From the NCBI RefSeq assembly GCF_014207185.1, contig NZ_JACHCP010000001.1, forward strand, positions 413,512 to 477,511: DNA of 64,000 nt, in the 5' to 3' direction. Position numbers and translations under genes: made by a program. How positions within the stretch are numbered: position 1 is the stretch's first letter; each line of letters begins with the position of its first letter. This DNA is from Rhodanobacter sp. A1T4. GTDB taxonomy: Bacteria > Pseudomonadota > Gammaproteobacteria > Xanthomonadales > Rhodanobacteraceae. Of this stretch, positions 1-20,381 are shown one piece after another. The notes beneath the pieces were generated by a model. The model ran no database searches. It was not told where the DNA came from and saw only the letters and a list, made by a program, of their open reading frames with translations.

Positions 1-1021
1 GTACCAGGTTTCCCCGTCTATCGTTCCGGCCGATGCCAGCAAACATCCGATCAATGTCAGTGGGCATGCCGTATACAGCGAGTTTTTTCCGATGCTGGAC
101 GTGCCGTTCAAATATGGCAACGGTTGGAGTGCGGACGACGACGAGCAGCGCGCTGCGGTGGTGGTGATCAGCAGCAAGCTCAACGAGAAATTGTTTGGTG
201 GTGCCAACAGCGTGGGCAAGACGGTCAATGTCGAAGGCAAGGACTACCGTGTGGTTGGTGTGACGAACGACTGGAATCCGCAGCCGCGCTTCTACGATGT
301 CGTTAACAGCGGCGGATTCTCGACCGGTCTGGACGATGTGTTTCTGCCGTTCGAGCGGGCGATTGCGCTCTCCATCCCCAACGACGGCAACACCAACTGC
401 AACGCAATCCCTGCGGAATCGGGTTTCGTCGGCCTGCAGCATTCCAGCTGCGTCTGGATCGCCTACATGGCCGAACTGGATGACGCGGCGACGGCAAGTA
501 CATACAAGGCATATCTGGACGGTTATGCGCATCAGCAGCAGCAATCCGGCCGCTTTGCCTGGGCGCCCAACAATCGCTTGCGCAATCTGCCGGACTGGCT
601 GGATTCGCAGCATGTGGTGCCCAGTGACACCAAGGTCTCGTTGCTGGTGGCGCTTGGGTTGTTGATCGTCTGCCTGGTCAACACGGCCGGTCTGCTGCTG
701 GCGAAATTTCTGCGCCGTAGCAGCGAAATCGGCGTGCGCCGCGCGCTGGGTGCGCAGCGCCTGTCGATCTACGCGCAGTTCCTTACCGAGGCCGGGATGA
801 TCGGTCTGGCCGGTGGCGTACTCGGCCTGTTGTTGACCGGCGTGGGCGTGGCCAGTGTTGGCTGGGTGTTGCCGAAGGACATCGCCGCGCTGGCCCGGGT
901 GGATCTGATGTTGCTCGCCATGACCCTGCTGATTGCCGTCGTCGCGACGCTGCTGGCTGGCCTGTACCCCACTTTCCGTGCTGCACGCGTTCAGCCCGCG
1001 TGGCAGCTCAAGTCGAACTGA
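1..1021 (+). CDS. MacB/FtsX-family ABC transporter permease, A-type (5' truncated by window edge)
   Basis: Membrane subunit of a MacB-type ABC transporter. The reading frame is open from base 2, so the start lies outside the window; 339 residues are visible. The visible part begins inside the large periplasmic (MacB_PCD) domain, with the family hallmark FFPMLDVPF and then an FGGxNSVGK stretch. It ends with three membrane segments typical of FtsX permeases, separated by the cytoplasmic EIGVRRALGA coupling motif. The C-terminus reads WQLKSN, as in the other A-type paralogues. Two cysteines (codons at 398 and 449) bracket a variable 16-residue loop, a feature all five A-types share. The gene is followed after 10 bases by its B-type partner. 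No nucleotide-binding domain is present, so it must use a separate ATPase. Confidence 0.9.
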   Translation, partial: YQVSPSIVPADASKHPINVSGHAVYSEFFPMLDVPFKYGNGWSADDDEQRAAVVVISSKLNEKLFGGANSVGKTVNVEGKDYRVVGVTNDWNPQPRFYDVVNSGGFSTGLDDVFLPFERAIALSIPNDGNTNCNAIPAESGFVGLQHSSCVWIAYMAELDDAATASTYKAYLDGYAHQQQQSGRFAWAPNNRLRNLPDWLDSQHVVPSDTKVSLLVALGLLIVCLVNTAGLLLAKFLRRSSEIGVRRALGAQRLSIYAQFLTEAGMIGLAGGVLGLLLTGVGVASVGWVLPKDIAALARVDLMLLAMTLLIAVVATLLAGLYPTFRAARVQPAWQLKSN

Positions 1022-1031
1022 GGACAACGTC

Positions 1032-2285
1032 ATGGCTCTCCATCCCATTCTCGCGGCATTGCGCAAGCACAAGTCCGGCGTCGTGTTGATTTCGATGCAG
1101 ATCGCGCTGACCTTGGCGATCGTCTGCAATGCCATCTTCATCATCGGTCAGCGTATCGACCGGGTGAACCGGCTCACCGGGCTCGACGAGGGCAACCTGT
1201 TTCTGGTTACCCAACAGTGGGTAGGTGCTCCCAGCGGCGATGACCCTGCCGGCGTCGAAAAACTCGACAGCATGCAGAAGGAAGATCTGGTCGCGCTGCG
1301 CACTCTGCCGGATGTCGCTTCGGTCGCGTCGATCAATTCGCTGCCGTTGCTCAACTCCTCATCGAACGGTGAGATTTCGCTCAAGCCGGGAGCGACCGAG
1401 AGCAAGGGCAACACGCGGACGACCTTTTATTTTGGCGACGAACAGATGCTTTCCACGCTGGGGCTGCGTCTGATCGCCGGGCGTGCCTTCAATACGGGCG
1501 ACATCCAGCACCATAGTTTTCGTGATCAGACCGAACCGTCGATCGTCATTGTCACCAAGCCCATTGCGGACAAGCTGTTTCCGCAGGGAAGTGCGGTCGG
1601 CAAGGTGATGTATCTCGATGGAGGTACCACGCCGACCACCATCATTGGCGTGGTCGAACGCCTGCAGGTACCGGGCTCCGGCAGCTGGACCAACAATTTC
1701 GCCTACAACGCCACGCTGGAGCCAACCCGGATCGACCACAACTATGCGCGCTATGTGGTACGTGCCAAGCCGGGTCGTCTGGAGGCGGCTATGCGTGCGA
1801 TACCGCCGACGCTCTACAAGGTCAACCCGCTGCGCGTCCTCGACGACGACAGCGTCAAGTCGTTCGCCGATATCCGTGCCAGTGCCTACCGAGCCGATAT
1901 CGGTATGGCAATCCTGATGGGTGTGGTCTGCCTGATTCTGCTCGGGGTTACCGCGGCGGGCATTGTCGGCCTGACCAGTTTCTGGGTCGGTCAGCGACAT
2001 CGGCAGATCGGCGTGCGGCGCGCGCTGGGGGCTCGCAAGATCGACATCCTGCATTACTTCCAGATCGAGAACCTGATGATCGCAGGCATCGGCGCGGTGA
2101 TTGGCGTACTACTCGCCCTCGGGCTCAACGCCTGGCTGATGCAGCATTTCGAGATGGATCGCATCCCGTTGGCCTATGTGCTGGTCGGTCTGGTCGCGCT
2201 GGTGATACTGGGCCAGGTTGCTGTCTTCGTTCCCGCACGGCGCGCGTCCAACGTGTCGCCGGTCGAAGCGACGCGAGCGGCGTGA
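1032..2285 (+). CDS. MacB/FtsX-family ABC transporter permease, B-type
   Basis: B-type permease of pair 1, 417 aa from the ATG at 1032, which has GAGGA just upstream at the end of the preceding gene; a longer frame exists but lacks such a site. One N-terminal membrane segment (about residues 18-38) is followed by a periplasmic domain of roughly 240 residues. Three C-terminal membrane segments follow, with the coupling motif QIGVRRALGAR. The C-terminal signature is PVEATRAA. It lacks the paired cysteines of A-types. MacB-like permeases act as dimers with an ATPase and a periplasmic adaptor and export peptides, macrolides or lipoproteins. The adjacent A/B genes suggest a heterodimer, which is inference; the substrate is unknown. 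Confidence 0.9.
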   Translation: MALHPILAALRKHKSGVVLISMQIALTLAIVCNAIFIIGQRIDRVNRLTGLDEGNLFLVTQQWVGAPSGDDPAGVEKLDSMQKEDLVALRTLPDVASVASINSLPLLNSSSNGEISLKPGATESKGNTRTTFYFGDEQMLSTLGLRLIAGRAFNTGDIQHHSFRDQTEPSIVIVTKPIADKLFPQGSAVGKVMYLDGGTTPTTIIGVVERLQVPGSGSWTNNFAYNATLEPTRIDHNYARYVVRAKPGRLEAAMRAIPPTLYKVNPLRVLDDDSVKSFADIRASAYRADIGMAILMGVVCLILLGVTAAGIVGLTSFWVGQRHRQIGVRRALGARKIDILHYFQIENLMIAGIGAVIGVLLALGLNAWLMQHFEMDRIPLAYVLVGLVALVILGQVAVFVPARRASNVSPVEATRAA

Positions 2286-2298
2286 TGGGAGGCAGGGG

Positions 2299-2436
2299 CG
2301 AGGGGCGAGTTGTGAAGGGCGACGGTGGCAGCGTCGGGCTGCACATGTTGCCTGCTGTCGACGTTGTGCTGTTGCCTTCGCACCCGCCGGGCTGGTGGTC
2401 ATCTCGCGGACTTGCGCTCTCGCGACTCGCCCCTCG
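2299..2436. repeat. Intergenic stretch bounded by a 12-bp perfect inverted repeat
   Basis: The 179-bp gap between permease pairs 1 and 2 is the largest gap inside the array that holds no gene. It carries CGAGGGGCGAGT at 2299-2310 and its exact reverse complement at 2425-2436, with G-rich left and C-rich right flanks. A small internal CAGC/GCTG palindrome lies near 2324-2336. There is no U-run consistent with an intrinsic terminator. It resembles the palindromic intergenic repeats scattered through Xanthomonad genomes, a likeness from memory and not a database match. Confidence 0.5.
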
Positions 2437-2464
2437 TCTCTTACTTTTTCCCGGAGCCTGATGC

Positions 2465-3769
2465 ATGTTCGCCTATTACCTCGAACTGGCCTTGCGCAGC
2501 CTCATGCGCAACAGGGCGCTCACCGCGCTGATGGTACTGGCGATCGCGCTCGGTATTGGTGCCAGCATGACCACGTTGACCGTGCTGCATGTGCTGTCCG
2601 GTGATCCGCTGCCGGAGCGCAGCAACACATTGTATTACCCGCAGGTCGATCCTCGTGACAGCGCCGGTCACGATTCCGACAAAGAGCCGATGGAGCAGGT
2701 GAGCTGGACTGACGGCAAGAATCTGTTGCAAGCGAAGCGTGCGAATCGTCAAGCGCTGATGACAGGCGGCACGGTGGCGGTCCAGCCGACGCAGTCCGCG
2801 CTCGACCCGTTCTACGAGGACGCGCGCTTCACCACCGCCGATTTCTTTCCGATGTTTGGTGTGCTGTTTCAGTACGGCCATGGCTGGAACGCTGCCGATG
2901 ACGACAGCAGCGCACGGTTGGTGGTGATCAGCAGCGCGTTGAACGACAAGTTGTTCGGCGGCAAGGACAGTACTGGCCAGATGCTGCGGCTGGAGGGCAC
3001 GGCATTGCGCATCGTCGGCGTGCTCGGCGACTGGCGACCAAACCCGCATTTCTATGACCTCAATGTGACCAACTATGCCGAGAGCGAGGGGGTTTATATG
3101 CCACTGTCCACCTCGCAGGATCTGCAGCTTGTCCATGATGGCTCCGTCGATTGCTGGGGCAACGGTGGGGCGGGTCAACGCCCGGACCACAGCGGAACTT
3201 GCGTGTGGCTGCAGTTCTGGGTGCAACTGGACAACCCGGCGCAGGCTGCGGTCTACAAAGAGTTCCTGGTGCATTACTCGCAGGAACAAAAAGCGCTAGG
3301 GCGTTTCCAGCGGCCGCCGAATGTACGCCTGCGCAATCTGATGGGCTGGCTGGACTACAACATGGTGGTGCCCGGGGACGTGCGCCTGCAGGTATGGCTG
3401 GCGTTCGGCTTTCTGCTGGTGTGTCTGGTCAATACGGTGGGGCTGATGCTGGCCAAGTTCATGCGCAGAGCGGGTGAGCTGGGTGTGCGCCGAGCGTTGG
3501 GCGCCTCGCGCCGTGCGCTGTTCGGGCAGCTGTTGGTGGAGGCTGGTGTGATTGGTCTCAGCGGCGGCATTGGCGGTTTGTTACTGGCCTTTCTCGGTCT
3601 GTGGCTTGTGCGCCAGCAACCGACCAGCTACGCGGCACTGGCGCATCTGGACCCCTGGATGCTGCTGACCACCTTCCTGCTGGCGCTAGGCGCGAGCCTG
3701 CTGGCCGGCTTGTTGCCGGCCTGGCGCGCTTGCCAGATCACTCCTGCCCTGCAACTGAAGAGCAACTGA
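2465..3769 (+). CDS. MacB/FtsX-family ABC transporter permease, A-type
   Basis: A-type permease of pair 2, 434 aa. An N-terminal membrane segment (about residues 19-42) contains the ALGIGASMTTLTVLHVLSGD stretch shared by all A-types. The periplasmic domain carries FFPMFGVLFQYG, an FGGKDSTG motif, and two cysteines (codons 3152 and 3200) enclosing a 15-residue variable loop followed by VWLQFW. Three C-terminal membrane segments (about 308-330, 355-378, 400-422) flank the ELGVRRALGAS coupling motif, and the protein ends LQLKSN. The start at 2465 fits the conserved MFxYY beginning of the paralogues. The B-type partner begins one base after the stop, so the pair is probably translationally coupled. 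Confidence 0.9.
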   Translation: MFAYYLELALRSLMRNRALTALMVLAIALGIGASMTTLTVLHVLSGDPLPERSNTLYYPQVDPRDSAGHDSDKEPMEQVSWTDGKNLLQAKRANRQALMTGGTVAVQPTQSALDPFYEDARFTTADFFPMFGVLFQYGHGWNAADDDSSARLVVISSALNDKLFGGKDSTGQMLRLEGTALRIVGVLGDWRPNPHFYDLNVTNYAESEGVYMPLSTSQDLQLVHDGSVDCWGNGGAGQRPDHSGTCVWLQFWVQLDNPAQAAVYKEFLVHYSQEQKALGRFQRPPNVRLRNLMGWLDYNMVVPGDVRLQVWLAFGFLLVCLVNTVGLMLAKFMRRAGELGVRRALGASRRALFGQLLVEAGVIGLSGGIGGLLLAFLGLWLVRQQPTSYAALAHLDPWMLLTTFLLALGASLLAGLLPAWRACQITPALQLKSN

Positions 3770-3770
3770 C

Positions 3771-5003
3771 ATGGATATCCTGCCGATTCTCTCCACTTTG
3801 CGGCGGCACAAGATCACCGCATGGCTGCTCATCCTGGAAATCGCGTTGACCTGCGCGATCGTGTGCAACGCGGTGTTCCTGATCAGCCAGCGCCTGGAGC
3901 GCATGAATCTGCCCAGCGGCATCGCCGAGCATGAGCTGGTGCAGGTCCAGCTGGCCAACATCGGCAACCGCTCCGATGCCGAGGCGCGCGCCAAAACCGA
4001 TCTGGCGGCATTGCGGCAGATTCCGGGTGTAACCCAGGTGGCGTTGGTCTTCCAAATGCCATTCACCGATGGTGGTTCGTCGAACAGCGGTATCAAGCTC
4101 GATCCGCAGCAGCAGGAGGACACGGTAGACGTCACCCAGTACATGGGTGAAAACCTGTTGTCTACATTGGGCACAAGACTGGTGGCAGGGCGTGATTTCC
4201 GGCCGGACGAATTCGTCGATCTCGATGCTGCCGTGACAGCCCTGCACAGCGGGAACCTCAAGGGCTTGCCGCAAGTGCTGGTGATCACCCAGATGCTGGC
4301 CGAAAGGCTATGGCCGGGGCAGAGCGCGCTGGGCAAGCAGATCTATCTGGGCCAGGGCCTTCCGTTCCGGGTGGTCGGCGTGGTCGCACACCTGGCTCGG
4401 CCGAACCGATTGTCAAAGGGCGTCGAATACAGCACGGTATGGCCGATCAGCATGAACGTGGCGCAGGGCGCCAGCTTCTTGATCCGCTGCGCGCCGCAGG
4501 AGCGCGAGCGGGTACTGAAATCCGCGCTGGCTGCGCTGAAGCAGCTGGACCCTAATCGCGTGGTGCTGCAGAAACGCACCTATGACGAGGCGCGCCACGC
4601 ATTTTTCGCGAACGATCGCGCGATGACCGGCATCCTGGTGGGCGTGTGCCTCGCGCTGCTGATCGTCACCGCACTGGGTATTGTCGGCCTCGCCAGCTTC
4701 TGGGTGGCGCAGCGTCGACGCACCATCGGCGTGCGCCGAGCGCTCGGCGCCACCCGCGCCAACATCCTGCAGTACTTCCAGACCGAGAATTTTCTGCTGG
4801 CAACCATCGGCATCGTGATCGGCATGGCGCTCGCCTTCGGCATCAATCTGTTCCTGATGCAGCACTACGAATTGCCACGACTTCCCGCCATCTATTTCCC
4901 GGTTGGCGCGATCGCGTTGTGGGTGATCGGGCAGCTAGCGGTGCTTGGCCCGGCATTGCGTGCGGCGGCGGTGCCGCCGGTGGTGGCGACGCGGTCGGTG
5001 TGA
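3771..5003 (+). CDS. MacB/FtsX-family ABC transporter permease, B-type
   Basis: B-type permease of pair 2, 410 aa. It begins MDILPILSTLRRHK, the basic cytoplasmic N-terminus typical of the B group, then one membrane segment (about 17-40). The periplasmic domain has the LGTRLVAGRDF and LWPGQSALGKQIY motifs conserved in MacB_PCD domains. Three C-terminal membrane segments surround TIGVRRALGATR, and the protein ends PPVVATRSV. The start lies one base after the A-type stop, giving tight coupling. No ATP-binding motifs are present. Export is the expected role by family, but the cargo cannot be read from the sequence. Confidence 0.9.
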   Translation: MDILPILSTLRRHKITAWLLILEIALTCAIVCNAVFLISQRLERMNLPSGIAEHELVQVQLANIGNRSDAEARAKTDLAALRQIPGVTQVALVFQMPFTDGGSSNSGIKLDPQQQEDTVDVTQYMGENLLSTLGTRLVAGRDFRPDEFVDLDAAVTALHSGNLKGLPQVLVITQMLAERLWPGQSALGKQIYLGQGLPFRVVGVVAHLARPNRLSKGVEYSTVWPISMNVAQGASFLIRCAPQERERVLKSALAALKQLDPNRVVLQKRTYDEARHAFFANDRAMTGILVGVCLALLIVTALGIVGLASFWVAQRRRTIGVRRALGATRANILQYFQTENFLLATIGIVIGMALAFGINLFLMQHYELPRLPAIYFPVGAIALWVIGQLAVLGPALRAAAVPPVVATRSV

Positions 5004-5060
5004 CTTGATGTGATTGCCTCCGCTGCTTGCAGGGGCGGAGAAGCTGACGGAGTGTACGAA

Positions 5061-6362
5061 ATGTTCGACTACTACCTTGGCTTGGCGCTACGCAGTCTGC
5101 GGCGCAACAAAGTGCTTACGGCGCTGATGATCGTCACGCTGGGGTTGGGCATCGGTGCGTCGATCACCACATTGACGGTGCTGCGTTTGCTCTCAGGCGA
5201 TCCGTTGCCACAAAAGAGTGCGCGCCTCTTCTATGCGCAAGTCGATCCGTATACCAAGGATGGCTATGAGGCAGGGAAAACCAAGCCGCAGCGCCTGATA
5301 GCCTACACCGACGCGATGAACCTGCTGCACGCACATCAGGCCGATCGACAGGTCGCGCTGGCATTGACCGACGCAAGAATTGCACCGCTGCGCAGCGGTG
5401 AGCATCCGTTCTTCAGCGATGGTGTGATGACCACGGCGGATTTCTTCACGATGTTCGATGCGCCGTTCCAGTACGGCGGCGGTTGGTCAGCGGCGGACGA
5501 TGAGAGCCGTGCACAGGTCGTAGTGATCTCCGACTTCCTCAACGACAAGCTGTTTGGCGGGGCCAGCAGTGTGGGTCGGATCATTCGCGTCAATGACCAC
5601 GATCTACGCATCATCGGCGTGTTGAAAAAGTGGGCGCCACAACCGCGCTTCTACGCGCAGGAGTTGGGCGGACGCAGCTATGGCGATGGTGATGCGGTGT
5701 TCCTGCCGTTGCAGACCGCGCGTGCCGCCAACATGGATCCGACGAACGACGACTGTTGGGCGGTTGCTGACATCACCAAGCTGGAAACGGCACCCTGCAT
5801 ATGGCTGGGCTTCTGGGTGGAGCTATCCAGCGATGCCGAGGTCGCCGCGTACACGCAATTCCTGTCGAACTATGCACAGCAGCAGATCGCACTGGGCCGC
5901 TTCTATCGCCCCGAGGTGGCGTTGTCGGATCTGATGCAGTGGCTGCGCAACGAGAAGGTGGTGCCTGACGACGTGCGCTTGCAGGCCGGTCTGGCTTTTG
6001 GCTTTTTGCTGATCTGCGTGGTGAACACGGTAGGCCTGTTGCTGGCCAAGTGTCTGCGCCGTTCGCAGGAGATCGGTGTGCGCCGCGCCTTGGGGGCCAT
6101 GCGGCGTGAGATTTTCGCGCAGTTCATGGTCGAAGCCGGCATGGTCGGGTTGGCAGGCGGTTTGCTGGGCTTGGTCTTTGCGGAGTTTGGTCTCTGGTGC
6201 ATCCGCCACCAGCCAGCTGAATATGCCGGACTTGCTCATCTGGACGTCCACATGTTTCTGCTCACGTTCCTGGTGGCGCTCGTTTCGAGCTTGGTCGCCG
6301 GCTTGCTGCCGGCGTGGCGAGCCAGCCAGCTTGCGCCCGGTTCGCAACTGAAGGCCGCCTGA
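5061..6362 (+). CDS. MacB/FtsX-family ABC transporter permease, A-type
   Basis: A-type permease of pair 3, 433 aa from the ATG at 5061, chosen because it gives the MFDYYLGLALRSL beginning shared with the paralogues; an in-frame GTG at 5010 would add 17 unrelated residues. Domain order matches the other A-types: N-terminal membrane segment, MacB_PCD periplasmic domain with FFTMFDAPFQYGGGW, then three C-terminal membrane segments with EIGVRRALGAMR. The paired cysteines (codons 5754 and 5796) enclose 13 residues. The C-terminus is SQLKAA. The B-type partner follows directly. Confidence 0.9.
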   Translation: MFDYYLGLALRSLRRNKVLTALMIVTLGLGIGASITTLTVLRLLSGDPLPQKSARLFYAQVDPYTKDGYEAGKTKPQRLIAYTDAMNLLHAHQADRQVALALTDARIAPLRSGEHPFFSDGVMTTADFFTMFDAPFQYGGGWSAADDESRAQVVVISDFLNDKLFGGASSVGRIIRVNDHDLRIIGVLKKWAPQPRFYAQELGGRSYGDGDAVFLPLQTARAANMDPTNDDCWAVADITKLETAPCIWLGFWVELSSDAEVAAYTQFLSNYAQQQIALGRFYRPEVALSDLMQWLRNEKVVPDDVRLQAGLAFGFLLICVVNTVGLLLAKCLRRSQEIGVRRALGAMRREIFAQFMVEAGMVGLAGGLLGLVFAEFGLWCIRHQPAEYAGLAHLDVHMFLLTFLVALVSSLVAGLLPAWRASQLAPGSQLKAA

Positions 6363-6369
6363 GGTGCTT

Positions 6370-7575
6370 ATGGAAATCCGACCGATTCTCGCCAGCCTGC
6401 GCAAACACCGGATTCCGGCCATCCTGATCGTGCTGGAGATCGCGCTGGCCTGTGCCGTGCTGTGCAACGCGGTATTCATGATCGGCCAGCGCGTGGTCGA
6501 TATCCACCGCTCCAATGCCATCGACGAGCGGGGCATCGGGGTGATTACCGTGGACGGCAGCGACCCGAAGATGGCTTCCAGTGACATCCCGCGCAATCTT
6601 GGCCGGTTGCGTGGCATAGCCGGCGTACAAGCGGTGGCGGTAACCAACACGGTGCCATTGAGCAACAACAACTGGGGCTGGGCGTTTGGTGCCACGCCGG
6701 ATAGCAGATTCAACGACGCCGTGAATATCTCGGCGTACTTCCTCAGTGAGGGTGGCGACAAGGCGCTTGGCCTGCAATTGCTGCAGGGACGTTTCTTCAG
6801 CTCAGACGAATACGCCGACAGCAAACGGGGTTCGATGCCACTGGTGGATACGCATGTCGTCATCATCACGCAAAGCTTGGCTGAGCGGATGTGGCCGGGG
6901 CAGCCGGCGCTGGGCAAAGTGCTCTATTCCAAACCGTTGGCCTACACGGTGGTCGGCGTGGTGGCTGATGTGCTGCGCCCGTTCGTGAACAGCCAGAAGG
7001 CCTGGTACAGCACCTTCTTTCCGCTCAGCCCCGACGGTGCGCTGAGCTACTACGTGGTGCGTAGTGCGCCGCAGGATCGCGACCGCGTGGTTCGGCAGGC
7101 CCAACAGACTTTGAGCGAGCTCAACCCGATTGCAGTCGTCAAGGGCCACAGCTACACCGATATCCGCGAACGGTATTTCGCCAACATGAGCAGCATGGCC
7201 TGGATGCTGGTGCTGGTATGCGTGGTGATGCTGGCGGTCACCGCTTTCGGCATCGTTGGCCTGACCAGTTTCTGGGTGCAGCAGCGTCGCCGGCAGATCG
7301 GCATCCGCCGTGCCGTGGGCGCCACGCGCGGCCACATCATGCAGTACTTCCAGGCCGAGAATTTTCTGCTTAGTACGGCTGGCGTGGTCATTGGTATGGG
7401 TCTGGCATTCGGCATCAATCTGTACCTGATGCAGCACTACGAGATGGAGCGCATGCCCTGGTATTACCTACCAGGTGGCGCGATTGCGTTGTGGCTGATC
7501 GGTCAGTTCGCTGTGTTCGGGCCGGCGCGTCGCGCAGCAGCAGTGCCGCCCGTGGTGGCGACGAGGTCAGCATGA
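6370..7575 (+). CDS. MacB/FtsX-family ABC transporter permease, B-type
   Basis: B-type permease of pair 3, 401 aa from the ATG at 6370 (MEIRPILASLRKHR); an in-frame GTG two codons earlier is possible. A single N-terminal membrane segment, a periplasmic MacB_PCD domain with MWPGQPALGK, and three C-terminal membrane segments around QIGIRRAVGATR are visible. It ends PPVVATRSA. Its stop codon overlaps the start of the CPBP protease gene by four bases (ATGA at 7572), which couples translation of the protease to the permease pair. It has no cysteine pair of the A-type kind. Confidence 0.9.
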   Translation: MEIRPILASLRKHRIPAILIVLEIALACAVLCNAVFMIGQRVVDIHRSNAIDERGIGVITVDGSDPKMASSDIPRNLGRLRGIAGVQAVAVTNTVPLSNNNWGWAFGATPDSRFNDAVNISAYFLSEGGDKALGLQLLQGRFFSSDEYADSKRGSMPLVDTHVVIITQSLAERMWPGQPALGKVLYSKPLAYTVVGVVADVLRPFVNSQKAWYSTFFPLSPDGALSYYVVRSAPQDRDRVVRQAQQTLSELNPIAVVKGHSYTDIRERYFANMSSMAWMLVLVCVVMLAVTAFGIVGLTSFWVQQRRRQIGIRRAVGATRGHIMQYFQAENFLLSTAGVVIGMGLAFGINLYLMQHYEMERMPWYYLPGGAIALWLIGQFAVFGPARRAAAVPPVVATRSA

Positions 7576-8393
7576 TGATGAAGTCTTTTGTGAGCCGGCG
7601 TCTGTTGGTCTTCCTGATCGTCTGCTTCAGTGTGACGTGGAGTGCGTGGGGCCTCCTGGGCTGGCTGGCGCGTACGCAGCAGCTCGTCTATGGCGAATGG
7701 CCATTCATGCTGCTCTATGTGCTCGGCGGTCTCGGGCCGATGATCGGAGCATATGTAGCTGTGCTGTCGACTTCGTCGCAGGCTCCGCTCAGGGAATTTC
7801 ATCAACGATTGTTTCGTTGGCGGGTTGCCGGCTGGTGGTATGCCGTGGCCATTGGCCTGCCAGTAGTTCTGGCTATCGCCTCGACGATGATTGCCGTGCT
7901 GTTCCGTCCGGATCTGTCGAGCGCACTTTCGATCCGGCCCTGGTACATGTTCGTGCCGCTGCTCGCCGTCATGATCGTGGGCGGCGGCCTGGAGGAGCCC
8001 GGCTGGCGGGGTATTGCCCAACCGGAGATCGCGCGTACCACCGGGTCTGCAAAGGCGGCTCTATTGGTTGGCCTGGTCTGGGCTCTCTGGCACGTTCCGC
8101 TCTTTTTCCTCCCCGGTGTGAGTCAGTACGGCAGCAACTTCCCGGTTTTTGCACTGGGTGTGGTCGGCATGGCCCTGATGCTGGGTTGGCTGTACAGCCG
8201 TACCGCAAGCATCCTGCTCTGCGTTGTCTTCCATGCTGCCGCAAACGCGATCACCGCGCTTGGGGTCGCTATCCCACATGAGGCTGGTTGCCTGGTTCTA
8301 CTGAGCCCATGCCTTCACGTCTTGGCGGGATTCGTTCTGCTGCTGGCGGCTCGGGCTCGATCCGATGAGCGCGTTGCTGCGGAGTTTGTATGA
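7572..8393 (+). CDS. CPBP-family intramembrane metalloprotease (CAAX/Rce1-like, PF02517)
   Basis: Multi-pass membrane protein of 273 aa from the ATG at 7572, which overlaps the preceding permease stop by four bases. It carries the three CPBP motifs: EEPGWR (E141, E142, R146, the EExxxR motif), WALWH with H174, and HAAAN with H221 and N225. These are the predicted metal-binding and catalytic residues of Rce1/CPBP glutamic-type proteases. Family members cleave prenylated proteins, take part in bacteriocin maturation or immunity, or process regulatory membrane proteins. It lies between permease pairs 3 and 4. A role in processing a peptide handled by the exporters, or immunity to one, is inference. 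All key residues are intact, so it is likely an active enzyme. Confidence 0.88.
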   Translation: MMMKSFVSRRLLVFLIVCFSVTWSAWGLLGWLARTQQLVYGEWPFMLLYVLGGLGPMIGAYVAVLSTSSQAPLREFHQRLFRWRVAGWWYAVAIGLPVVLAIASTMIAVLFRPDLSSALSIRPWYMFVPLLAVMIVGGGLEEPGWRGIAQPEIARTTGSAKAALLVGLVWALWHVPLFFLPGVSQYGSNFPVFALGVVGMALMLGWLYSRTASILLCVVFHAAANAITALGVAIPHEAGCLVLLSPCLHVLAGFVLLLAARARSDERVAAEFV

Positions 8394-8457
8394 GCTTCGT
8401 ATCCGGTGTGAGGGCAAGGCGTTTTCAGATGTTTTACTTTTCAGGGGGCGAATGAGC

Positions 8458-9786
8458 ATGTTTGGTTATTACCTCAACCTTGCCCTGCGAAGTCTCATGC
8501 GCAACAAGATGCTGACCGCGCTGATGGTAATCGCGATTGCTGTCGGTATCGGTGCGAGCATGACCACGCTGACGGTAATGCACCTGCTGTCCGGTGATCC
8601 GCTGCCTGGGCGCAGCCAGCACATCTTCTATCCGCAGGTGGATCCGTCGCCGTTGCCCGATCCGGAGAACACCCACAAACCGTGGGACATGATGGATTAC
8701 CGTTCGGCGACGGATCTGTGGAGTGCTCATCGCGCCGATCGCCAGGCGCTCATCGGCCGCAGTGCGTTGCGCTTGACCGCGCCCGATATGAACCAGCCGC
8801 CATTGATGGCGCAAGTGCTCTCGACCACTTCGGATTTCTTCCCGATGTTCGCGGTGCCTTTCCAGTACGGCGGTAGCTGGCAGCCTCAGGACGATCAGCA
8901 GCGCACGCGCGTGGCCGTGATTTCCTCTGATCTCAACATCAAGCTATTCGGCGGCGCCAATAGTGTCGGCCGCACGTTACGACTCAAGGACAGCGATGTG
9001 CGCATTATCGGCGTTCTCGCGCCATGGCGGCCATCGCCGCAGTTCTACGACTTGGTCGGTGGCCGTTTCTCGAACGGCCAGACGGCAGACTTCTACAGTA
9101 AGCCGCAGGAAGTCTTCATGCCGTTTTCGAGTTCGTTAGATATCAACACCGACGGCTTCATGGCCTTCACCTGCTGGCGTGCGCCGGATCCGGGTACGTC
9201 GATGACGACATCGCCTTGCGTCAGCGTTGCGTTGTGGGTGGAGCTCGGCAACGCCGCCAAAGTCGCTGACTACAAGGCCTTCATCACCGACTACGCCACG
9301 CAGCAGAAAGCGCTCGGTCGCCTGACGCATGCCGACAACACGAGGATGCCCAGCCTGATGCAGTGGCTCGACTTCAACCAGGTCGTGCCCAGCGACGTGC
9401 GCCTGCAGACCTGGCTGGCATTCGCGTTCCTGCTGATCTGTTTGTTCAACACGGTCGGCCTGCTGCTGGCGAAATTCCTGCGCCGTTCTGGCGAGATCGG
9501 TGTACGCCGTGCGCTCGGTGCGACGCGTGGTGCCGTGCTGACGCAGTGCCTGGTTGAAGCCGGTCTGATCGGGTTGATCGGTGGTTTCGGCGGATGGCTT
9601 CTGACACTGCTCGGACTTGCGTTGATCCGCCAGCAGCCGGTGGCGTACGCCGATCTGCTGCACCTGGATAGCACGATGTTCCTGGCGACGTTCGTCATGG
9701 CCATCGTCGCCAGCCTGCTCGCAGGTGCGGTGCCCGCTTGGCGTGCCAGCCGTGTTGCGCTTGGTCTGCAACTGAAGACTTTGTGA
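8458..9786 (+). CDS. MacB/FtsX-family ABC transporter permease, A-type
   Basis: A-type permease of pair 4, 442 aa from the ATG at 8458 (MFGYYLNLALRSL). An ATG two codons upstream (8452) is also possible, but AGGGGG at about 8443 is better spaced for 8458 and the MFxYY start matches the paralogues. The periplasmic domain has FFPMFAVPFQYGG and FGGANSVGR. The cysteine pair (codons 9172 and 9217) encloses 14 residues; here the residue two after the second cysteine is Ser, not Trp. Three C-terminal membrane segments with EIGVRRALGATR follow, ending LQLKTL. A 79-base gap separates it from its B partner, wider than in the other pairs. Confidence 0.9.
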   Translation: MFGYYLNLALRSLMRNKMLTALMVIAIAVGIGASMTTLTVMHLLSGDPLPGRSQHIFYPQVDPSPLPDPENTHKPWDMMDYRSATDLWSAHRADRQALIGRSALRLTAPDMNQPPLMAQVLSTTSDFFPMFAVPFQYGGSWQPQDDQQRTRVAVISSDLNIKLFGGANSVGRTLRLKDSDVRIIGVLAPWRPSPQFYDLVGGRFSNGQTADFYSKPQEVFMPFSSSLDINTDGFMAFTCWRAPDPGTSMTTSPCVSVALWVELGNAAKVADYKAFITDYATQQKALGRLTHADNTRMPSLMQWLDFNQVVPSDVRLQTWLAFAFLLICLFNTVGLLLAKFLRRSGEIGVRRALGATRGAVLTQCLVEAGLIGLIGGFGGWLLTLLGLALIRQQPVAYADLLHLDSTMFLATFVMAIVASLLAGAVPAWRASRVALGLQLKTL

Positions 9787-9865
9787 TGCGCTTTCCATGC
9801 GCGTGAAAGCGGCCATCCGTGGCCGCACTCCTCAAAAAGAGCGTTTTCTTACAGGTACTTTCGAC

Positions 9866-11080
9866 ATGCAGATCCAGCCGGTTCTTGCCGCCCTGCGTCG
9901 CCATCGCCTCGCCACCATCCTGATCGCCATGGAGATCGCACTGGCGTGCGCGGTGTTGTGCAACGCATGCTTTCTGATTGCCAGCCGTATCCAGATGACA
10001 CATGTCGACAGCGGCGTGGACGAGAGTTTCCTGGCTACGATCAAGCTGACCGGTTACGACGAGGCCAAGGCCAGCGATCTCAATGCCCGCGTGACGTCCG
10101 GTCTGCGCGAGATTCCGGGCATGCAGTCGGTCAGCGTGATCAATGAGGTGCCGTTCGGCGAGACCGCCGGTAACGCTGGCATCACGCTGGACAGCGCCGG
10201 TCAGAAGTTCGCTGGCGTGGTCGATTTCTACGTGGCCGGCCCGGGAAATTTCGAGGCGCTGGGCCTGCAGCTCATCTCCGGACGCGCACCGCGGGCAGAT
10301 GATTTTCAACCGATGAAAGCGTTTCTTCCTTCGAGCGCAAACGTGATCGTGAGCCGCTCACTGGCCGAACACCTGTGGCCTGACACCGATCCGTTGGGCA
10401 AGGAATTCTGGTGCGGGGACTTCCACTTTCGCGTGACAGGCGTGGTGGCGCATCTGGCGCGTCCGAGTGCCGGTGAGGGTGGTCCCGGCACCATCGAGTG
10501 GTCGGTATTCACGCCGGCACAACCGGGCGCGAATCTCTCGGGCGTCTACCTGCTGCGCGCCGATCCGGCACAGCTCCCGCGCGTCTTGCGGGACGCGCGC
10601 GCCGCGATCGCCAAGTTGGCGCCGGATGCGGTAGTCGAACAACAGGCCAGCCAGACGATCGGCGATCTGCGGCAAGTCTATTTCCGTCAGGACCGCATCA
10701 TGGCGGGAATGCTGCTGGGCGTGATCGTGGCTCTGCTGCTGGTCACCGCGCTCGGTATCGTCGGTCTCGCCAGTTTCTGGGTGCAGCAACGGCGCCGGCA
10801 GATCGGCATCCGCCGCGCGATCGGTGCGACGCGTGGCGACATCCTGCGCTACTTCCAGACCGAGAACTTCCTGATCGTTACGTCGGGTATCGCACTCGGC
10901 ATGTTGCTGGCGTACGCGTTGAACCTGTTGCTGATGACGCAGTACGAATTGCCACGACTACCGCTGTACTACCTGCCCGCCGGAGCCCTGATCTTGTGGG
11001 GACTCGGCCAGCTTGCCGTGCTGGGTCCGGCGTTGCGCGCTGCCGCCGTGCCGCCGGTGGTGGCGACGTGGTCGGGATGA
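9866..11080 (+). CDS. MacB/FtsX-family ABC transporter permease, B-type
   Basis: B-type permease of pair 4, 404 aa from the ATG at 9866 (MQIQPVLAALRRHR), with ACAGG about ten bases upstream. A longer frame from 9797 would add residues absent from the paralogues. Architecture: one N-terminal membrane segment, the MacB_PCD domain with LWPDTDPLGKEF, then three C-terminal membrane segments with QIGIRRAIGATR. The C-terminus is PPVVATWSG. It is the only B-type here with W in place of the final R of the VATR signature. Confidence 0.9.
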   Translation: MQIQPVLAALRRHRLATILIAMEIALACAVLCNACFLIASRIQMTHVDSGVDESFLATIKLTGYDEAKASDLNARVTSGLREIPGMQSVSVINEVPFGETAGNAGITLDSAGQKFAGVVDFYVAGPGNFEALGLQLISGRAPRADDFQPMKAFLPSSANVIVSRSLAEHLWPDTDPLGKEFWCGDFHFRVTGVVAHLARPSAGEGGPGTIEWSVFTPAQPGANLSGVYLLRADPAQLPRVLRDARAAIAKLAPDAVVEQQASQTIGDLRQVYFRQDRIMAGMLLGVIVALLLVTALGIVGLASFWVQQRRRQIGIRRAIGATRGDILRYFQTENFLIVTSGIALGMLLAYALNLLLMTQYELPRLPLYYLPAGALILWGLGQLAVLGPALRAAAVPPVVATWSG

Positions 11081-11144
11081 AGCCGCGCACGCCACGCCAT
11101 TTCAATCAGTAGGAAACAATGACTCAAGTACTCAAGGGGGCACG

Positions 11145-12449
11145 ATGTTCGGCTATTACTTCGATCTGGCACGGCGTAGCCTGATACGCAGCCCGATTCT
11201 CACCGCGATGATGGTGCTGGCTATCGGGCTTGGCATCGGCGCGAGCATGACGATGCTCACGGTGCTGCATGTGATGTCGGGTGACCCGATACCGGAGCAC
11301 AGCGGGCAGCTGTATTACCCGCATCTCGATGCACGTCCGCTCAGTTCGAAGGACGACAAGAATGCGCCTGACCCCAGCGCGAATCTGAGCTGGATCGATG
11401 CAAGCAATCTCTTGCGAGCTCATCAAGGAGATCGACAGGCGGCGATGGCGGGTGGAAGCGTTCTCGTGCGTCCGGCACAAACCAGTCTGCGGCCGTTTTT
11501 CGAGACGGGTCATTACATCACCGCGGATTTCTTTCCGATGTTCGACGTGCCGTTCCGCACGGGCGGCGGCTGGACGCAGGTGCAGGACGAGCAACATGAG
11601 CGGGTCGTGGTGCTCAATGGCGACCTTGCTCGCAAGCTGTTCGGCGACACGTCCGCTACCGGCAAGATCGTTCGGCTGCAGGACACCGACTTCCGGGTCA
11701 TCGGCGTGCTGAATGACTGGTATCCGCAACCCGCCTTTTATGGCGATACGAGCGGCCATGCCTTTGGCAAGACCGATGAATTTTTCCTGCCGTTGACGAC
11801 GGCGATGGATCTGAAATTCGACAGTAACGGCAATATGTCGTGCTGGGGATCGGGCGGAGATCAGCGCACCAGCGGAGAATGCACTTGGCTGCAATTCTGG
11901 GTCAGCCTGGATGGCCCAACCAAGGTGCATGCGTACCAGCAGTTTCTCGAGGATTACTGGCGCCAGCAACAAGCTCATGGTCGCTTCGCACGGCCGGTTG
12001 ATGCAAAGCTCTATGGTCTGCTGGCATGGCTCGACCACATGCAGCTGGTACCTGGAGATGTGCGTCTGCAGCTGTGGTTGGCACTGGGCTTTCTTGCGGT
12101 GTGCATGGTCAACATTGTCGGCCTTCTGCTGGCCAAGTTTTTGCGCCGTAGTGGTGAGGTGAGCGTGAGGAGGGCGCTGGGTGCACGCCGGCGCGACATC
12201 TTCCTGCAGTTCGGCGTCGAGTCGGCCGTGATCGGTGTCGCCGGTGGCCTGCTCGGACTTGGCATCGCACAACTGGGGCTTTGGAGCGTGCGCCATCGTC
12301 CGGATGACTATGCGCATCTCGCGCAAATGGATGTTTCGATGTTGTTGGGCACCCTGGTACTGGCCATTGTCGCCAGCGTCTTGGCAGGTCTGCTGCCGGC
12401 CTGGCGTGCCTGCCGCATTACGCCCGCCCTGCAACTCAAGACCCAATAA
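11145..12449 (+). CDS. MacB/FtsX-family ABC transporter permease, A-type
   Basis: A-type permease of pair 5, 434 aa from the ATG at 11145, six bases after a strong AAGGGGG ribosome binding site. The N-terminal membrane segment includes GLGIGASMTMLTVLHVMSGD. The periplasmic domain has FFPMFDVPFRTGGGW. The cysteine pair (codons 11841 and 11880) encloses 12 residues and is followed by TWLQFW. Three C-terminal membrane segments flank EVSVRRALGARR, and the protein ends LQLKTQ. It is closest by eye to the pair 2 A-type, since both share CWGxGG after the first cysteine. Confidence 0.9.
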   Translation: MFGYYFDLARRSLIRSPILTAMMVLAIGLGIGASMTMLTVLHVMSGDPIPEHSGQLYYPHLDARPLSSKDDKNAPDPSANLSWIDASNLLRAHQGDRQAAMAGGSVLVRPAQTSLRPFFETGHYITADFFPMFDVPFRTGGGWTQVQDEQHERVVVLNGDLARKLFGDTSATGKIVRLQDTDFRVIGVLNDWYPQPAFYGDTSGHAFGKTDEFFLPLTTAMDLKFDSNGNMSCWGSGGDQRTSGECTWLQFWVSLDGPTKVHAYQQFLEDYWRQQQAHGRFARPVDAKLYGLLAWLDHMQLVPGDVRLQLWLALGFLAVCMVNIVGLLLAKFLRRSGEVSVRRALGARRRDIFLQFGVESAVIGVAGGLLGLGIAQLGLWSVRHRPDDYAHLAQMDVSMLLGTLVLAIVASVLAGLLPAWRACRITPALQLKTQ

Positions 12450-12458
12450 GGTGATGTC

Positions 12459-13676
12459 ATGCAACTGAGGCCGATCCTTTCCAGCCTGACGCGTCACAAG
12501 CTCACGGCGTTCCTTCTGATACTGCAAGTGACCTTCACGTGCGCGATTGTCTGCAACGTGATGTTCATGATTGCTACCCGCACCAGCCAGATGCGTCTGC
12601 CCAGTGGTATCGCGGAAAACGAGCTGGCCATGATCGACTCGGTGGATATTGATGCGACCGAGAATCCGTTGGTCAGACACGAGCAGGATCTGGTCGCTCT
12701 GCGTGGCATCGCTGGTGTGAAATCGGCTGTGGTGGTAGATGCCTTGCCGCTCAACCGCGACAACTGGACCAACGGTATTACCACCGTTCCCGATGCCGAT
12801 ACACATGTGGGGGCGAGCGCATACAACGGCACACCCGGTGAACTGCAGACGCTTGGCCTGCACCTGATAGAGGGGCGTGATTTCCAGGCCGATGAATACA
12901 TCGCCGAAGATGTGCCGCATGGTTACAAGGGTATCGACACGGTACCCGTCACCATCGTGACCAGGGCATTGGCCGAGCAATTGTTTCCGGGGCAGTCCGC
13001 ACTGGGCAAGGATATTTACGCGAGCGGGACTCACCCCACCCGCGTCGTTGGGGTAGTCGATCACATGCTGCGTCCAGCGTTGCGCGATCCGGCTACCAAT
13101 GAATACGCCATGCTTTTCCCAATGAAGCCCGATGACAGCGAGGTCACCTACGTGATGCGTACTGCACCGCACGACCGTGAGCGTGTGCTGAAAGAAGCTT
13201 CCGCCGTGCTGGTCCGGCTTAATGGCAATCGCATCCTCAAATCGCCACAAACATTTACTCAGGTGCGTGACAGCTATTTTCATCGCGACCAGACCATGGT
13301 CGGGTTGTTACTGGTGGCGGGTCTTGGCCTGCTTTTCGTGACAGCCCTTGGCATTGCTGGCCTGGCCAATTTCTGGGTGCAGCAACGACGTCGACAGATT
13401 GGCGTTCGCCGCGCGTTGGGCGCCACGCGCAGCGACATTCTGCGTTACTTCCAGACCGAGAACTTTTTGATCGTCAGTGGCGGAATCGTGCTGGGCATGG
13501 CGCTGGCGTTTGCGCTGAATCTTACACTGATGAAGTTCTACGAGCTGCCACGTCTGCCGCTTTACTACCTGCCTATCGGCGCGTTGGCGCTGTGGCTGCT
13601 GGGGCAGCTAGCCGTACTGGGCCCGGCGTTGCGAGCTGCCGCGGTGCCGCCGGTGGTGGCGACTCGGTCGGTCTGA
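12459..13676 (+). CDS. MacB/FtsX-family ABC transporter permease, B-type (last of the array)
   Basis: B-type permease of pair 5, 405 aa, starting MQLRPILSSLTRHK with AAGGTGATG overlapping the end of its A partner. One N-terminal membrane segment, a MacB_PCD domain containing LFPGQSALGKDIY, and three C-terminal membrane segments around QIGVRRALGATR are visible. It ends PPVVATRSV, identical to the pair 2 B-type. This closes the permease array; a 78-base gap precedes the secreted DUF885 gene on the same strand. Confidence 0.9.
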   Translation: MQLRPILSSLTRHKLTAFLLILQVTFTCAIVCNVMFMIATRTSQMRLPSGIAENELAMIDSVDIDATENPLVRHEQDLVALRGIAGVKSAVVVDALPLNRDNWTNGITTVPDADTHVGASAYNGTPGELQTLGLHLIEGRDFQADEYIAEDVPHGYKGIDTVPVTIVTRALAEQLFPGQSALGKDIYASGTHPTRVVGVVDHMLRPALRDPATNEYAMLFPMKPDDSEVTYVMRTAPHDRERVLKEASAVLVRLNGNRILKSPQTFTQVRDSYFHRDQTMVGLLLVAGLGLLFVTALGIAGLANFWVQQRRRQIGVRRALGATRSDILRYFQTENFLIVSGGIVLGMALAFALNLTLMKFYELPRLPLYYLPIGALALWLLGQLAVLGPALRAAAVPPVVATRSV

Positions 13677-13754
13677 AGAACCATGCACTCTGGCACGGGA
13701 GGATCGGCGCGTCGGGGGGCACAATCGGGGTTCACATTCTGGGAGAGGTGCTTG

Positions 13755-15584
13755 ATGAAAACGCTACCGTTGTTGATTGCGATGAGCCTGCTGGGCTCGA
13801 TGACTCTTGCGGCATCCGTGCAGGCGGCTCCTGCGACGCAGGCGTCGTCGATGAGTGTGGCAAGTCGTGTGGCGGCGCTCAATGCGTTGCTGGCGGAGCA
13901 GTGGCAGCATCAGTTGGAGAGCAGCCCGGAGTTCGCCACCACGCTCGGCGATCTTCGCTACAACAGTTTGTGGAGCAATGCATCGCTGGCGCATGTGGCG
14001 AGCGAACGCACGATTACCGAGAATTTCCTCAAGCGTTTCGAGGCAATCGATACGACTGGTTTCTCCGACAGCGACGCGCTCAACCAGCAGCTGATGGTGC
14101 GCCAGCTCAAGGACGGCCTGCGCAGTACCGATCTCAAGCTGTATGAAATGCCGCTGGATCAGATGAGCGGCGCGCATATTGCGCTGGCCGGTTTCGTCAG
14201 CTCGATCCCGTTCGACAACACGAAGGAATATGACGATTACCTCGCCCGCCTGAAGGCCGTGCCGAAGTTGTTCGATCAGGTGACGGAGGTCGCGAAGCAG
14301 GGCTTGCGCGACAAGATGATGCCGCCGAAGTACGTGCTGGAAAAAGTCGTGGTGCAGATCGACAACATTGAGAAATCGGCCGGTATGGAGAGCGTGTTCG
14401 CCGAGCCACTGAAGCATTTTCCGGCGTCGGTATCGGCGGCTGATCAGAAGCGCCTGCACGACGCCATTCTCGCAGCCATCGATGACAATGTGCGCCCGGC
14501 GTACAAGAAGCTCGGCGAGTTTGTGGCGAAGGATTACGCGCCGCACGGACGCGCCGAACCAGGTATCTGGAATTTGCCGAACGGCGACGCCATTTACCGT
14601 TTCGACGTCGAGCAGATGACCACTACCAAGGAGACGCCGGAGCAGATTCACGCGCTAGGTCTGGCCGAGGTCAAGCGCATCGAAGGGTTAATGACGGGCA
14701 TCGCCAAGTCGCAGGGCTTTGCTGATCTGGCCAGCTTTCGCGCCTCGCTGAAAGCCAATCCGAAGACACATGCGACGTCGCGTGAGGACATCCTCAATCG
14801 CTATCGTGGCTATCTGGCGCAGATGCAGCCGCAGTTGCCCAAGTTCTTCGGTCTGTTGCCGAAAACCAAGGTCGTGGTGGTGCCGGTTGAAGCCTTCCGC
14901 GAGAAAGAGGCTGCTGCTGCCGAATATCATCAGGGCACGCCGGACGGTTCACGGCCCGGGCAGATTTTTGTCAATACCGGCGACTTCGCCAATCGCAGCG
15001 TGCTGACGATCGAGTCGACCGCCTACCACGAAGGCATTCCGGGTCATCATCTGCAGATATCGATTGCGCAGACGCTGCCAGCGCTGCCGCCGTTCCGTCA
15101 GCAGGGCGGTTACACCGCCTATATCGAGGGCTGGGCGCTGTATTCCGAGCAACTGGGCAAGGACATTGGTTTCTATCAGGATCCGCTGTCCGATTACGGC
15201 CGTCTCTCCGACGAGTTGCTGCGTGCCGATCGACTGGTACTCGACACCGGCGTGCACGACAAGCACTGGACGCGCCAGCAGATGGTCGATTTCTTCCATG
15301 CCCATTCCAGCGAGGACGAACCCGACGTACAGGCCGAGACCGATCGCTACATCACCTGGCCGGGCCAGGCGCTGGCCTACAAGACCGGTGAGTTGAAGAT
15401 TCTCGAGCTGCGTGAGCGGGCGAAAAAGGAACTGGGCAGCCAGTTCGACATCCGCGCGTTCCACGACGAAATCCTCAATGGCGGCGCGCTGCCGCTGGAC
15501 GTGTTGGAGACGCGGGTCAATGCGTGGATTGCGGCGGTGAAGTCAGGCAAGGCGCCGGCACATCCGGCGGCGGCTGCGAGCTGA
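13755..15584 (+). CDS. Secreted DUF885-family (HExxxGH) metallopeptidase-like protein
   Basis: Exported protein of 609 aa. The ATG at 13755 has GGGAGAGG just upstream and gives a clear signal peptide (MKT, hydrophobic core, AAS-VQA cleavage region near residue 25); a longer upstream frame would bury it. The family hallmark HEGIPGH spans residues 425-431 (H425, E426, H431), the presumed zinc-binding site. Length matches the roughly 600-residue DUF885 proteins. The family is thought to act as peptidases in the cell envelope, but the substrate is not known. It follows the permease array on the same strand, so it could belong to the same transcription unit; no promoter or terminator was recognised between them. 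Confidence 0.85.
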   Translation: MKTLPLLIAMSLLGSMTLAASVQAAPATQASSMSVASRVAALNALLAEQWQHQLESSPEFATTLGDLRYNSLWSNASLAHVASERTITENFLKRFEAIDTTGFSDSDALNQQLMVRQLKDGLRSTDLKLYEMPLDQMSGAHIALAGFVSSIPFDNTKEYDDYLARLKAVPKLFDQVTEVAKQGLRDKMMPPKYVLEKVVVQIDNIEKSAGMESVFAEPLKHFPASVSAADQKRLHDAILAAIDDNVRPAYKKLGEFVAKDYAPHGRAEPGIWNLPNGDAIYRFDVEQMTTTKETPEQIHALGLAEVKRIEGLMTGIAKSQGFADLASFRASLKANPKTHATSREDILNRYRGYLAQMQPQLPKFFGLLPKTKVVVVPVEAFREKEAAAAEYHQGTPDGSRPGQIFVNTGDFANRSVLTIESTAYHEGIPGHHLQISIAQTLPALPPFRQQGGYTAYIEGWALYSEQLGKDIGFYQDPLSDYGRLSDELLRADRLVLDTGVHDKHWTRQQMVDFFHAHSSEDEPDVQAETDRYITWPGQALAYKTGELKILELRERAKKELGSQFDIRAFHDEILNGGALPLDVLETRVNAWIAAVKSGKAPAHPAAAAS

Positions 15585-15648
15585 TCCAGGTGCGCTGCCC
15601 GGGCATGGTTCGGGCAGCGCTTTTGATCACGTCATACGGGGAGTTGTG

Positions 15649-16431: not shown

Positions 16432-16533
16432 CCTCGTGCATACATTTCGTTGCCATCGATACCCCACTAGTCCGATAGTCATGCAAACCTTTGGGCTCGG
16501 AGCGGCATCTATGTCCGCATGTGCAGAAAAAAA

Positions 16534-17877
<1,344 letters not shown>

Positions 17878-17917
17878 TGGTATTGGCATGGCCAAATGAA
17901 ACGCCAGGGAGCGTCGC

Positions 17918-19333: not shown

Positions 19334-19405
19334 CGGCGAGCGCCGACAGTGCGCGTAACAACAGCTCGCCTATACTTGTGACTTCGTCACGGATGGGGAC
19401 AGGCA

Positions 19406-20371: not shown

Positions 20372-20381
20372 GGCCGATGCC

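Follow-up and report, generated by a model that had tools for sequence, protein, structure and literature searches.

Type VII exporters, those of the MacB/FtsX fold, have a permease of four helices in which a periplasmic MacB_PCD domain follows helix 1 and an FtsX domain lies at the C-terminus, and the usual view of MacB-type exporters is that there is one permease set per ATPase. In MacB itself, the ATPase is fused to the permease and the protein is a homodimer. LolCDE carries out lipoprotein sorting with no adaptor or TolC, and the ADOP family is called orphan for having no ATPase in its operon. In the cyanobacterial DevBCA systems each set has its own ATPase and the common component is the TolC-type channel HgdD, and in group II ECF transporters one ATPase serves several membrane units. 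According to parts of two papers, the LolCDE permease is a heterodimer and at least seven MacB-like exporter sets among the DevBCA paralogues pair with one common component (PMC8277102), and one ATPase serves several membrane units in the MsmK sugar systems (PMC4519317). Here we describe a locus of Rhodanobacter sp. A1T4 (contig NZ_JACHCP010000001.1) in which nine tandem pairs of MacB-type permeases, each made of an A gene and a B gene, lie behind a single ATPase gene and a single adaptor gene. The titles and abstract openings listed in full-text searches of mainly open-access literature do not describe a tandem A/B array with one ATPase. The stretch of DNA analyzed, referred to as the window, is 64,000 nucleotides long and spans bases 413512-477511 of its contig, which measures 688 kb in a genome of 5.08 Mb; a contig coordinate is the window coordinate plus 413511, and negative coordinates lie upstream of the left edge.

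An earlier note made from the letters of the window had described five A/B permease pairs without an ATPase. The window does hold ten permease genes head to tail on the plus strand, A and B alternating strictly up to position 13676 with A5 cut by the window edge, and the start and end motifs given for the two subfamilies are as described. On the whole contig, the array proved to consist of nine pairs rather than five: 18 permeases on one strand (+) from -10803 to 13676 in strict A/B alternation, with four whole pairs and the start of A5 (at -295) upstream of the left edge. This is not a chance pattern, since members of the A or B subfamily are 36-74% identical to one another over their full length. 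The lack of an ATPase holds for the window and fails for the locus: directly upstream of A1 lie, in order, one HlyD-type adaptor gene, one stand-alone ABC ATPase gene, and one TolC-type channel gene. The upstream search for an ATPase and an adaptor that had been proposed thus found one of each, and not five ATPases. The genes from adaptor to last permease are as follows.

-14484 to -13156, plus strand: HlyD-type adaptor, longest frame (open reading frame, ORF, and domain match)
-12993 to -12268, plus strand: ABC ATPase, 241 aa (Walker A, signature, and Walker B motifs seen by eye)
-12210 to -10867, plus strand: TolC-type channel
-10803 to -9493, plus strand: permease A1
-9482 to -8238, plus strand: permease B1
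-8223 to -6916, plus strand: permease A2
-6902 to -5676, plus strand: permease B2
-5663 to -4347, plus strand: permease A3
-4336 to -3107, plus strand: permease B3
-3043 to -1727, plus strand: permease A4
-1716 to -472, plus strand: permease B4
-295 to 1021 (1 to 1021 within the window), plus strand: permease A5, type A pair
1032 to 2285, plus strand: permease B5, type A pair
2465 to 3769, plus strand: permease A6, type B pair (AlphaFold2 model with MacB fold)
3771 to 5003, plus strand: permease B6, type B pair (AlphaFold2 model with MacB fold)
5061 to 6362, plus strand: permease A7, type D pair
6370 to 7575, plus strand: permease B7, type D pair
7578 to 8393, plus strand: CPBP/Rce1-like intramembrane protease (PF02517), 271 aa, between pairs 7 and 8
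8458 to 9786, plus strand: permease A8, type C pair
9866 to 11080, plus strand: permease B8, type C pair
11145 to 12449, plus strand: permease A9, type E pair
12459 to 13676, plus strand: permease B9, type E pair

To place these permeases, we combined domain scans, structure prediction, and database searches. The FtsX domain scored above cut-off in all 18 permeases and the MacB_PCD domain in 16, plus B6 when it was scanned alone; the domain scan showed no MacB_PCD domain in B8. AlphaFold2 models of A6 (mean pLDDT 83) and B6 (mean pLDDT 93) have the predicted fold of MacB minus its ATPase domain, and Foldseek retrieved MacB as the best match of both, with LolCDE, YbbAP, and other family members ranking below; MacB was also the top match in a sequence search of the PDB. 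The domains in the array, together with the A6/B6 models and their Foldseek matches, place it among the type VII exporters. In the NCBIfam scan, which covered four of the 18 permeases (A1, B1, A6, and B6), the ADOP model (TIGR03434; 803 positions) was matched over positions 6-401 by A1 and A6 and over positions 411-802 by B1 and B6. With A matching the first half and B the second, one A plus one B therefore corresponds to a single ADOP- or DarB-like chain, its halves on two genes.

None of the described systems covers the locus fully. The four permeases scored 159-196 bits against the single-chain ADOP cut-off of 622, and unlike ADOP the array has its own ATPase and adaptor in the operon; only pairs dispersed elsewhere, described below, are orphans in the ADOP sense. 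MacAB-TolC is the closest by structure and by PDB sequence and, as here, goes with an adaptor and TolC, whose genes adjoin the array, but the array ATPase is a separate 241-aa gene and the permeases are of two kinds. LolCDE likewise combines two different permeases of this fold with one separate ATPase gene, but it has one pair only, and the LolCDE equivalog scores here fall short (lolCE at most 32 of 362 bits, LolD 216 of 308). DarBCD (NF038010, NF038007, NF038008) also consists of an adaptor, a stand-alone ATPase, and a MacB-type permease, and its subunits are the closest export-specific NCBIfam models: DarD is the best NCBIfam match of the array ATPase (256.2 bits vs a cut-off of 375) and DarC the nearest export-specific model of the adaptor (77.6 of 450), both under cut-off, while DarB reached 23.3 of 700 bits. 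Unlike in DarBCD, separate A and B genes encode the permease, and there are nine such pairs. Looking by eye through the ORFs listed up- and downstream, we noticed no darobactin genes; no dedicated search was made and short precursors were not covered. The array is a variant of the MacB/DarBCD/LolCDE exporters.

That A and B paralogues duplicated together, as the earlier note had asked to be checked, is borne out by both distances and trees. The A and B distance matrices of this array correlate with r=0.93 (p=0.001), and all 24 of the 24 arrays with at least five full pairs gave A/B matrix correlations of 0.62-0.96 (p<0.04). When the best match of each A and each B was sought in another array (186 full pairs, 36 regions), the two belonged to one and the same pair in 85% of comparisons (4880 of 5771), vs a naive 20%. 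The A tree has 85 well-supported splits; the B tree reproduces 62 of these exactly, and its own supported splits are consistent with 72. Such co-duplication fits A and B forming a heterodimer in the manner of LolCDE. With the paralogues having duplicated together and one ATPase upstream instead of five, sharing of components encoded outside the window would be the most economical reading of the array.

The single ATPase is a regular property of such loci. We compared named loci (the best 80 of 553 loci) and array regions hand-picked from strong family-survey matches (34 loci in 32 genomes); 57 loci showed both the ATPase and the regulator in view, at most 56 of them distinct as G075 has the sequence of L019. 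Every one of the 57 has exactly one adaptor and one ATPase, with one to nine pairs. ATPase and adaptor matches below 150 bits were removed before this count, and no weaker second ABC match lies within the 57 arrays in the lists before that filter either. In 54 of the 57 loci there are as many A as B genes (G116, G135a, and L054 are the exceptions), frame-broken pieces being tallied separately. Among the best 80 of 553 loci, one pair is present in most named Xanthomonas, Stenotrophomonas, and Lysobacter loci and also in Massilia, Janthinobacterium, and Duganella loci, and at least three pairs in some Stenotrophomonas and Xanthomonas loci. An expansion confined to this genome was rejected: a survey of the family (147 genomes) found A-type permeases in 139 at E<=1e-30, with at least four matches in 87 genomes, two or three in 12, one in 40, and none in 8 (at most 11 candidates were scored per genome, and matches may lie outside an array). 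In a phylum-wide sample of 200 genomes, eight, this genome among them, have A-type permeases at E<=1e-60. A single-pair form was also seen on a Pseudoalteromonas xiamenensis plasmid (L145:9048-18006), with an ATPase 72.5% identical and, ahead of the adaptor, an additional gene for a sigma-54 regulator. SmaCDEF of Stenotrophomonas maltophilia was considered as a known single-pair form and rejected, as its primer pair, printed in parts of PMC12189255 and PMC11356428, is not found at up to three mismatches in L044 and L058, which come from S. maltophilia strains other than K279a; three lone primer matches elsewhere were unpaired.

Pairs of the same kind also occur away from any such ATPase. Nine named loci, each covered with flanks of 6 kb or more on either side, have one or two pairs and no ATPase of the array type, L016 among them showing one weak partial ABC match. 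This genome has a stand-alone type B A/B pair of its own (L002:2592-5130, C1:79591-82129). It immediately follows genes for a sensor kinase and a LytTR-like regulator, recognized by eye, and the 9 kb covered there contain no ATPase. Dispersed pairs would need an ATPase in trans, for which the array ATPase would be the natural candidate. They also favor an alternative in which there is no sharing: distal and dispersed pairs would use other ATPases, or would be ATPase-less periplasmic sensors or mechanical transmitters like the orphan ADOP proteins. In its favor, 22 ABC ATPase matches were counted in the whole genome, A and B correspond to the first and second half of ADOP, and the dispersed pair of this genome adjoins its own sensor kinase and regulator and lacks a sigma-54 site. 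We nevertheless regard this alternative as unlikely, given that no second ATPase lies within any of the 57 arrays, the coupling helices remain conserved, and six of 13 ATPase-less loci have a sigma-54 site upstream like that of the arrays (vs 2.4% of random stretches of equal length).

Sequence conservation is distributed unevenly along the permeases. The coupling-helix blocks are among the best conserved, with mean pairwise identities of 0.69-0.75 in A and 0.75-0.80 in B, alongside the first helix of A (0.67-0.70) and the last ten residues of B (0.82), and the periplasmic blocks are the least conserved (0.20-0.57). B4 and B5, for instance, share 82-90% identity over their first 40 residues and in the region of the coupling helix, but 42-62% in the periplasmic part. 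At equal divergence of the membrane part, same-type paralogues exceed orthologues in periplasmic divergence in 28 of 29 genomes, and still do so in 26 of 29 when orthologues are picked by the membrane part alone. This pattern fits different cargo combined with a shared engine. The orthologous array genes are under purifying selection: dN/dS is 0.06-0.24 in all 16 genes of the eight orthologous pairs shared with G052, whose adaptor score makes it the nearest relative in the sample (orthologues being mutual best matches, of which pair 3 has none).

Pairs can further be sorted into types, defined at one clustering threshold, which here follow the order A-A-A-A-A-B-D-C-E. Of the 28 arrays that have four or more full pairs, all 28 open with type A as their first full pair (11.7 expected under random order), and types B, C, D, and E are present in 27, 21, 15, and 10, respectively. 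Stenotrophomonas and Xanthomonas pairs nest within several types in a tree whose deep backbone is weakly supported, which suggests that the types arose before these lineages diverged, barring gene transfer from one to the other. Adjacent pairs are more alike than under random order (p=0.0005), as tandem duplication would predict, and this process probably gave rise to the pairs. The same likeness would be expected if the array were an amplification in which all pairs move the same cargo, gene dosage being the gain. That explanation is very unlikely in our view, as identity within a subfamily is just 36-74%, type A leads 28 of 28 arrays while B is present in 27 and C in 21, the types common to Stenotrophomonas and Xanthomonas loci look old, and orthologues are under purifying selection. 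Pairs may have been lost as well as gained, since some arrays carry broken permease genes (G116, L097-L098; G028, L135).

The genes and sites around the array bear on its regulation. After the last permease come a DUF885 protein, a PDZ protein, an NtrC-type response regulator, and a histidine kinase.

-14489 to -14473, plus strand: sigma-54 -24/-12 site TTGGCATGTGGATTGCA (16 of 17 points)
13755 to 15584, plus strand: DUF885 protein, presumably a peptidase (metallopeptidase-like HEGIPGHH motif and what looks like a signal peptide, both by eye)
15592 to 15620, plus strand: terminator-like stem, 13 pairs then a T run, directly 3' of the DUF885 gene and before the PDZ gene
15646 to 16431, plus strand: protein with two PDZ domains
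16519 to 17877, plus strand: NtrC-type response regulator (receiver, sigma-54 AAA+, Fis-type HTH)
17918 to 19333, plus strand: histidine kinase (HAMP, HATPase_c)

Because the sigma-54 promoter overlaps the first ATG of the longest adaptor frame, the real start of the adaptor is probably -14436 or -14427. A site of at least 15 of 17 points precedes the adaptor in 74 of 86 loci (the 86 adaptors include the G075/L019 duplicate) vs 1.2% of random stretches, and eight of the 12 loci without a good site show no regulator gene. Internal sigma-54 promoters before later pairs were considered and rejected: among 178 gaps of 60-500 bases, the lengths covered by the scan, none has a site of at least 15 points, with 1.5 expected by chance. 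With the site in front of the adaptor and none in the internal gaps, the array appears to form a single sigma-54 transcription unit, next to which an NtrC-type activator is encoded. Sigma-70 promoters and terminators in window positions 1-19500 showed no excess over shuffled sequence. A 2025 survey (PMC12316311) reports, in the part available, that sigma-54 promoters are enriched for COG0577 permeases in gammaproteobacteria, and on that account the regulatory link is already known at the family level. A word search of the available text of a Xanthomonas oryzae sigma-54 transcriptome paper (PMC7970052) returned none of the terms ABC transporter, permease, HlyD, or efflux.

Taken together, we consider it likely, with a probability of about 0.6 and mainly on the strength of comparative sequence data, that the locus encodes a modular, inducible tripartite exporter in which one ATPase and one adaptor drive many A/B heterodimers. 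Each A/B pair would be an obligate heterodimeric permease that docks on a dimer of the single ATPase through the conserved coupling helices, with a stoichiometry like that of LolCDE, and acts together with the one adaptor and a TolC channel. The pairs would differ mainly in their periplasmic domains, each handling its own cargo, and one sigma-54 promoter at the head of the array would be activated by the NtrC-type regulator and kinase encoded 3' of it.

Several observations weigh against this reading. The B tree contradicts 13 of the 85 supported splits of the A tree, which means that partners have been exchanged to some extent or that the trees contain errors. The paralogue excess in periplasmic divergence falls to 21 of 29 genomes when all cross-genome same-type pairs serve as the reference, the most diverged bin shows none, and gene conversion of gene ends could be its cause. 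Of 354 A proteins, 15 lack the coupling-helix pattern, as do 60 of 356 B proteins, and fast periplasmic and slow coupling-helix evolution is usual in the superfamily and does not by itself show sharing. Some pairs could be served by other ATPases, since the genome holds, besides that of the array, 21 ABC ATPase matches, of which six exceed 150 bits. Companion genes vary too: DUF885 is found in only 13 of the 57 loci and TolC in only four. As for regulation, four adaptor loci (three distinct) have a regulator and no good sigma-54 site, and the best candidate before the stand-alone pair of this genome reaches 12 of 17 points. Given the terminator-like stem after the DUF885 gene, the array transcript may end there with the regulator genes transcribed apart, although the scan overall found terminators no commoner than in shuffles.

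What a modular exporter of this kind would carry is a matter on which we are tentative. Our guess, which may well be wrong, is that envelope-active peptides or peptide-like compounds would be taken from the periplasm or inner membrane and expelled, as a defense against the compounds of rivals. We put such expulsion slightly ahead of secretion of the cell's own peptides. In the latter case, the same shared engine would serve pairs that each export a different self-made peptide or lipid-linked product, for which the likeness of the ATPase to DarD and of the adaptor to DarC, both darobactin export subunits, and the peptidase-type genes within the array (DUF885 in the 13 loci mentioned, CPBP in this genome) would speak. 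No biosynthesis gene was noticed by eye among ORFs of at least 120 aa in array gaps longer than 300 bases, where short precursors could escape, and a two-component switch at the locus suits a response to outside compounds at least equally; we hold secretion to be somewhat unlikely.

The spacing of the genes and the remaining neighbors deserve description. Gaps within pairs in the window are 10, 1, 7, 79, and 9 bases and those between pairs 179, 57, 882, and 64 bases. The rule of the earlier note, tight within pairs and wider between them, breaks down upstream, where the gaps before A2 and A3 are 14 and 12 bases, as tight as within-pair gaps. The 882-base gap between pairs 7 and 8 is not a plain gap, as it encodes the CPBP/Rce1-like protease, whose gene begins two bases after the B7 stop, and the idea that it holds a dead permease was rejected accordingly. 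In a tblastn search for pseudogene remnants, the wide gaps gave only weak matches (best E 8e-4 with permeases of relatives and 0.006 with the array's own). About 1.3 kb upstream of the adaptor lies a signal peptidase S26 gene (-16464 to -15775; L001:1048-1737). The CPBP protease had no match among ORFs of at least 120 aa in the other array regions and named loci compared, nor did the signal peptidase among those in the other regions compared, some of which end too close upstream, and both were rejected as conserved parts of the system. Small PDZ-like ORFs, recognized by eye, lie between B and the regulator in three Stenotrophomonas loci (L033, L044, and L051), the same place as the PDZ gene of the window, and the PDZ protein may be a recurring part of the system. 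In three other Stenotrophomonas loci with three or four pairs (L025, L030, and L035), a small secreted-looking DUF4440/SnoaL-like gene (by eye) follows a pair. After the kinase, at 19406-20825, the window continues with genes that by eye look like SPFH/stomatin-type and NfeD-type genes.

In a broader form, to which we would give even odds, one ATPase and adaptor would power an open-ended, co-duplicating set of A/B pairs, both in the operon and dispersed, with periplasmic domains diversified for cargo in the manner of a repertoire. If true, such a plug-in exporter would be the export counterpart of the shared-ATPase importers: the MsmK and ECF systems are importers of other folds, whereas the array is a MacB-fold exporter with many units in one operon. 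It would differ likewise from the DevBCA sets, which share an outer membrane channel where the array is proposed to share an ATPase. Multi-pair loci are common in related genomes, and repeats that are likely read as separate ABC transporter permeases could be one system. If one ATPase truly serves nine heterodimers, specificity can evolve by simple duplication of a pair, and the pairs would be a ready-made series for locating the part of the periplasmic domain that chooses the cargo. Sharing of this kind could also explain orphan permeases that have no adjacent ATPase.

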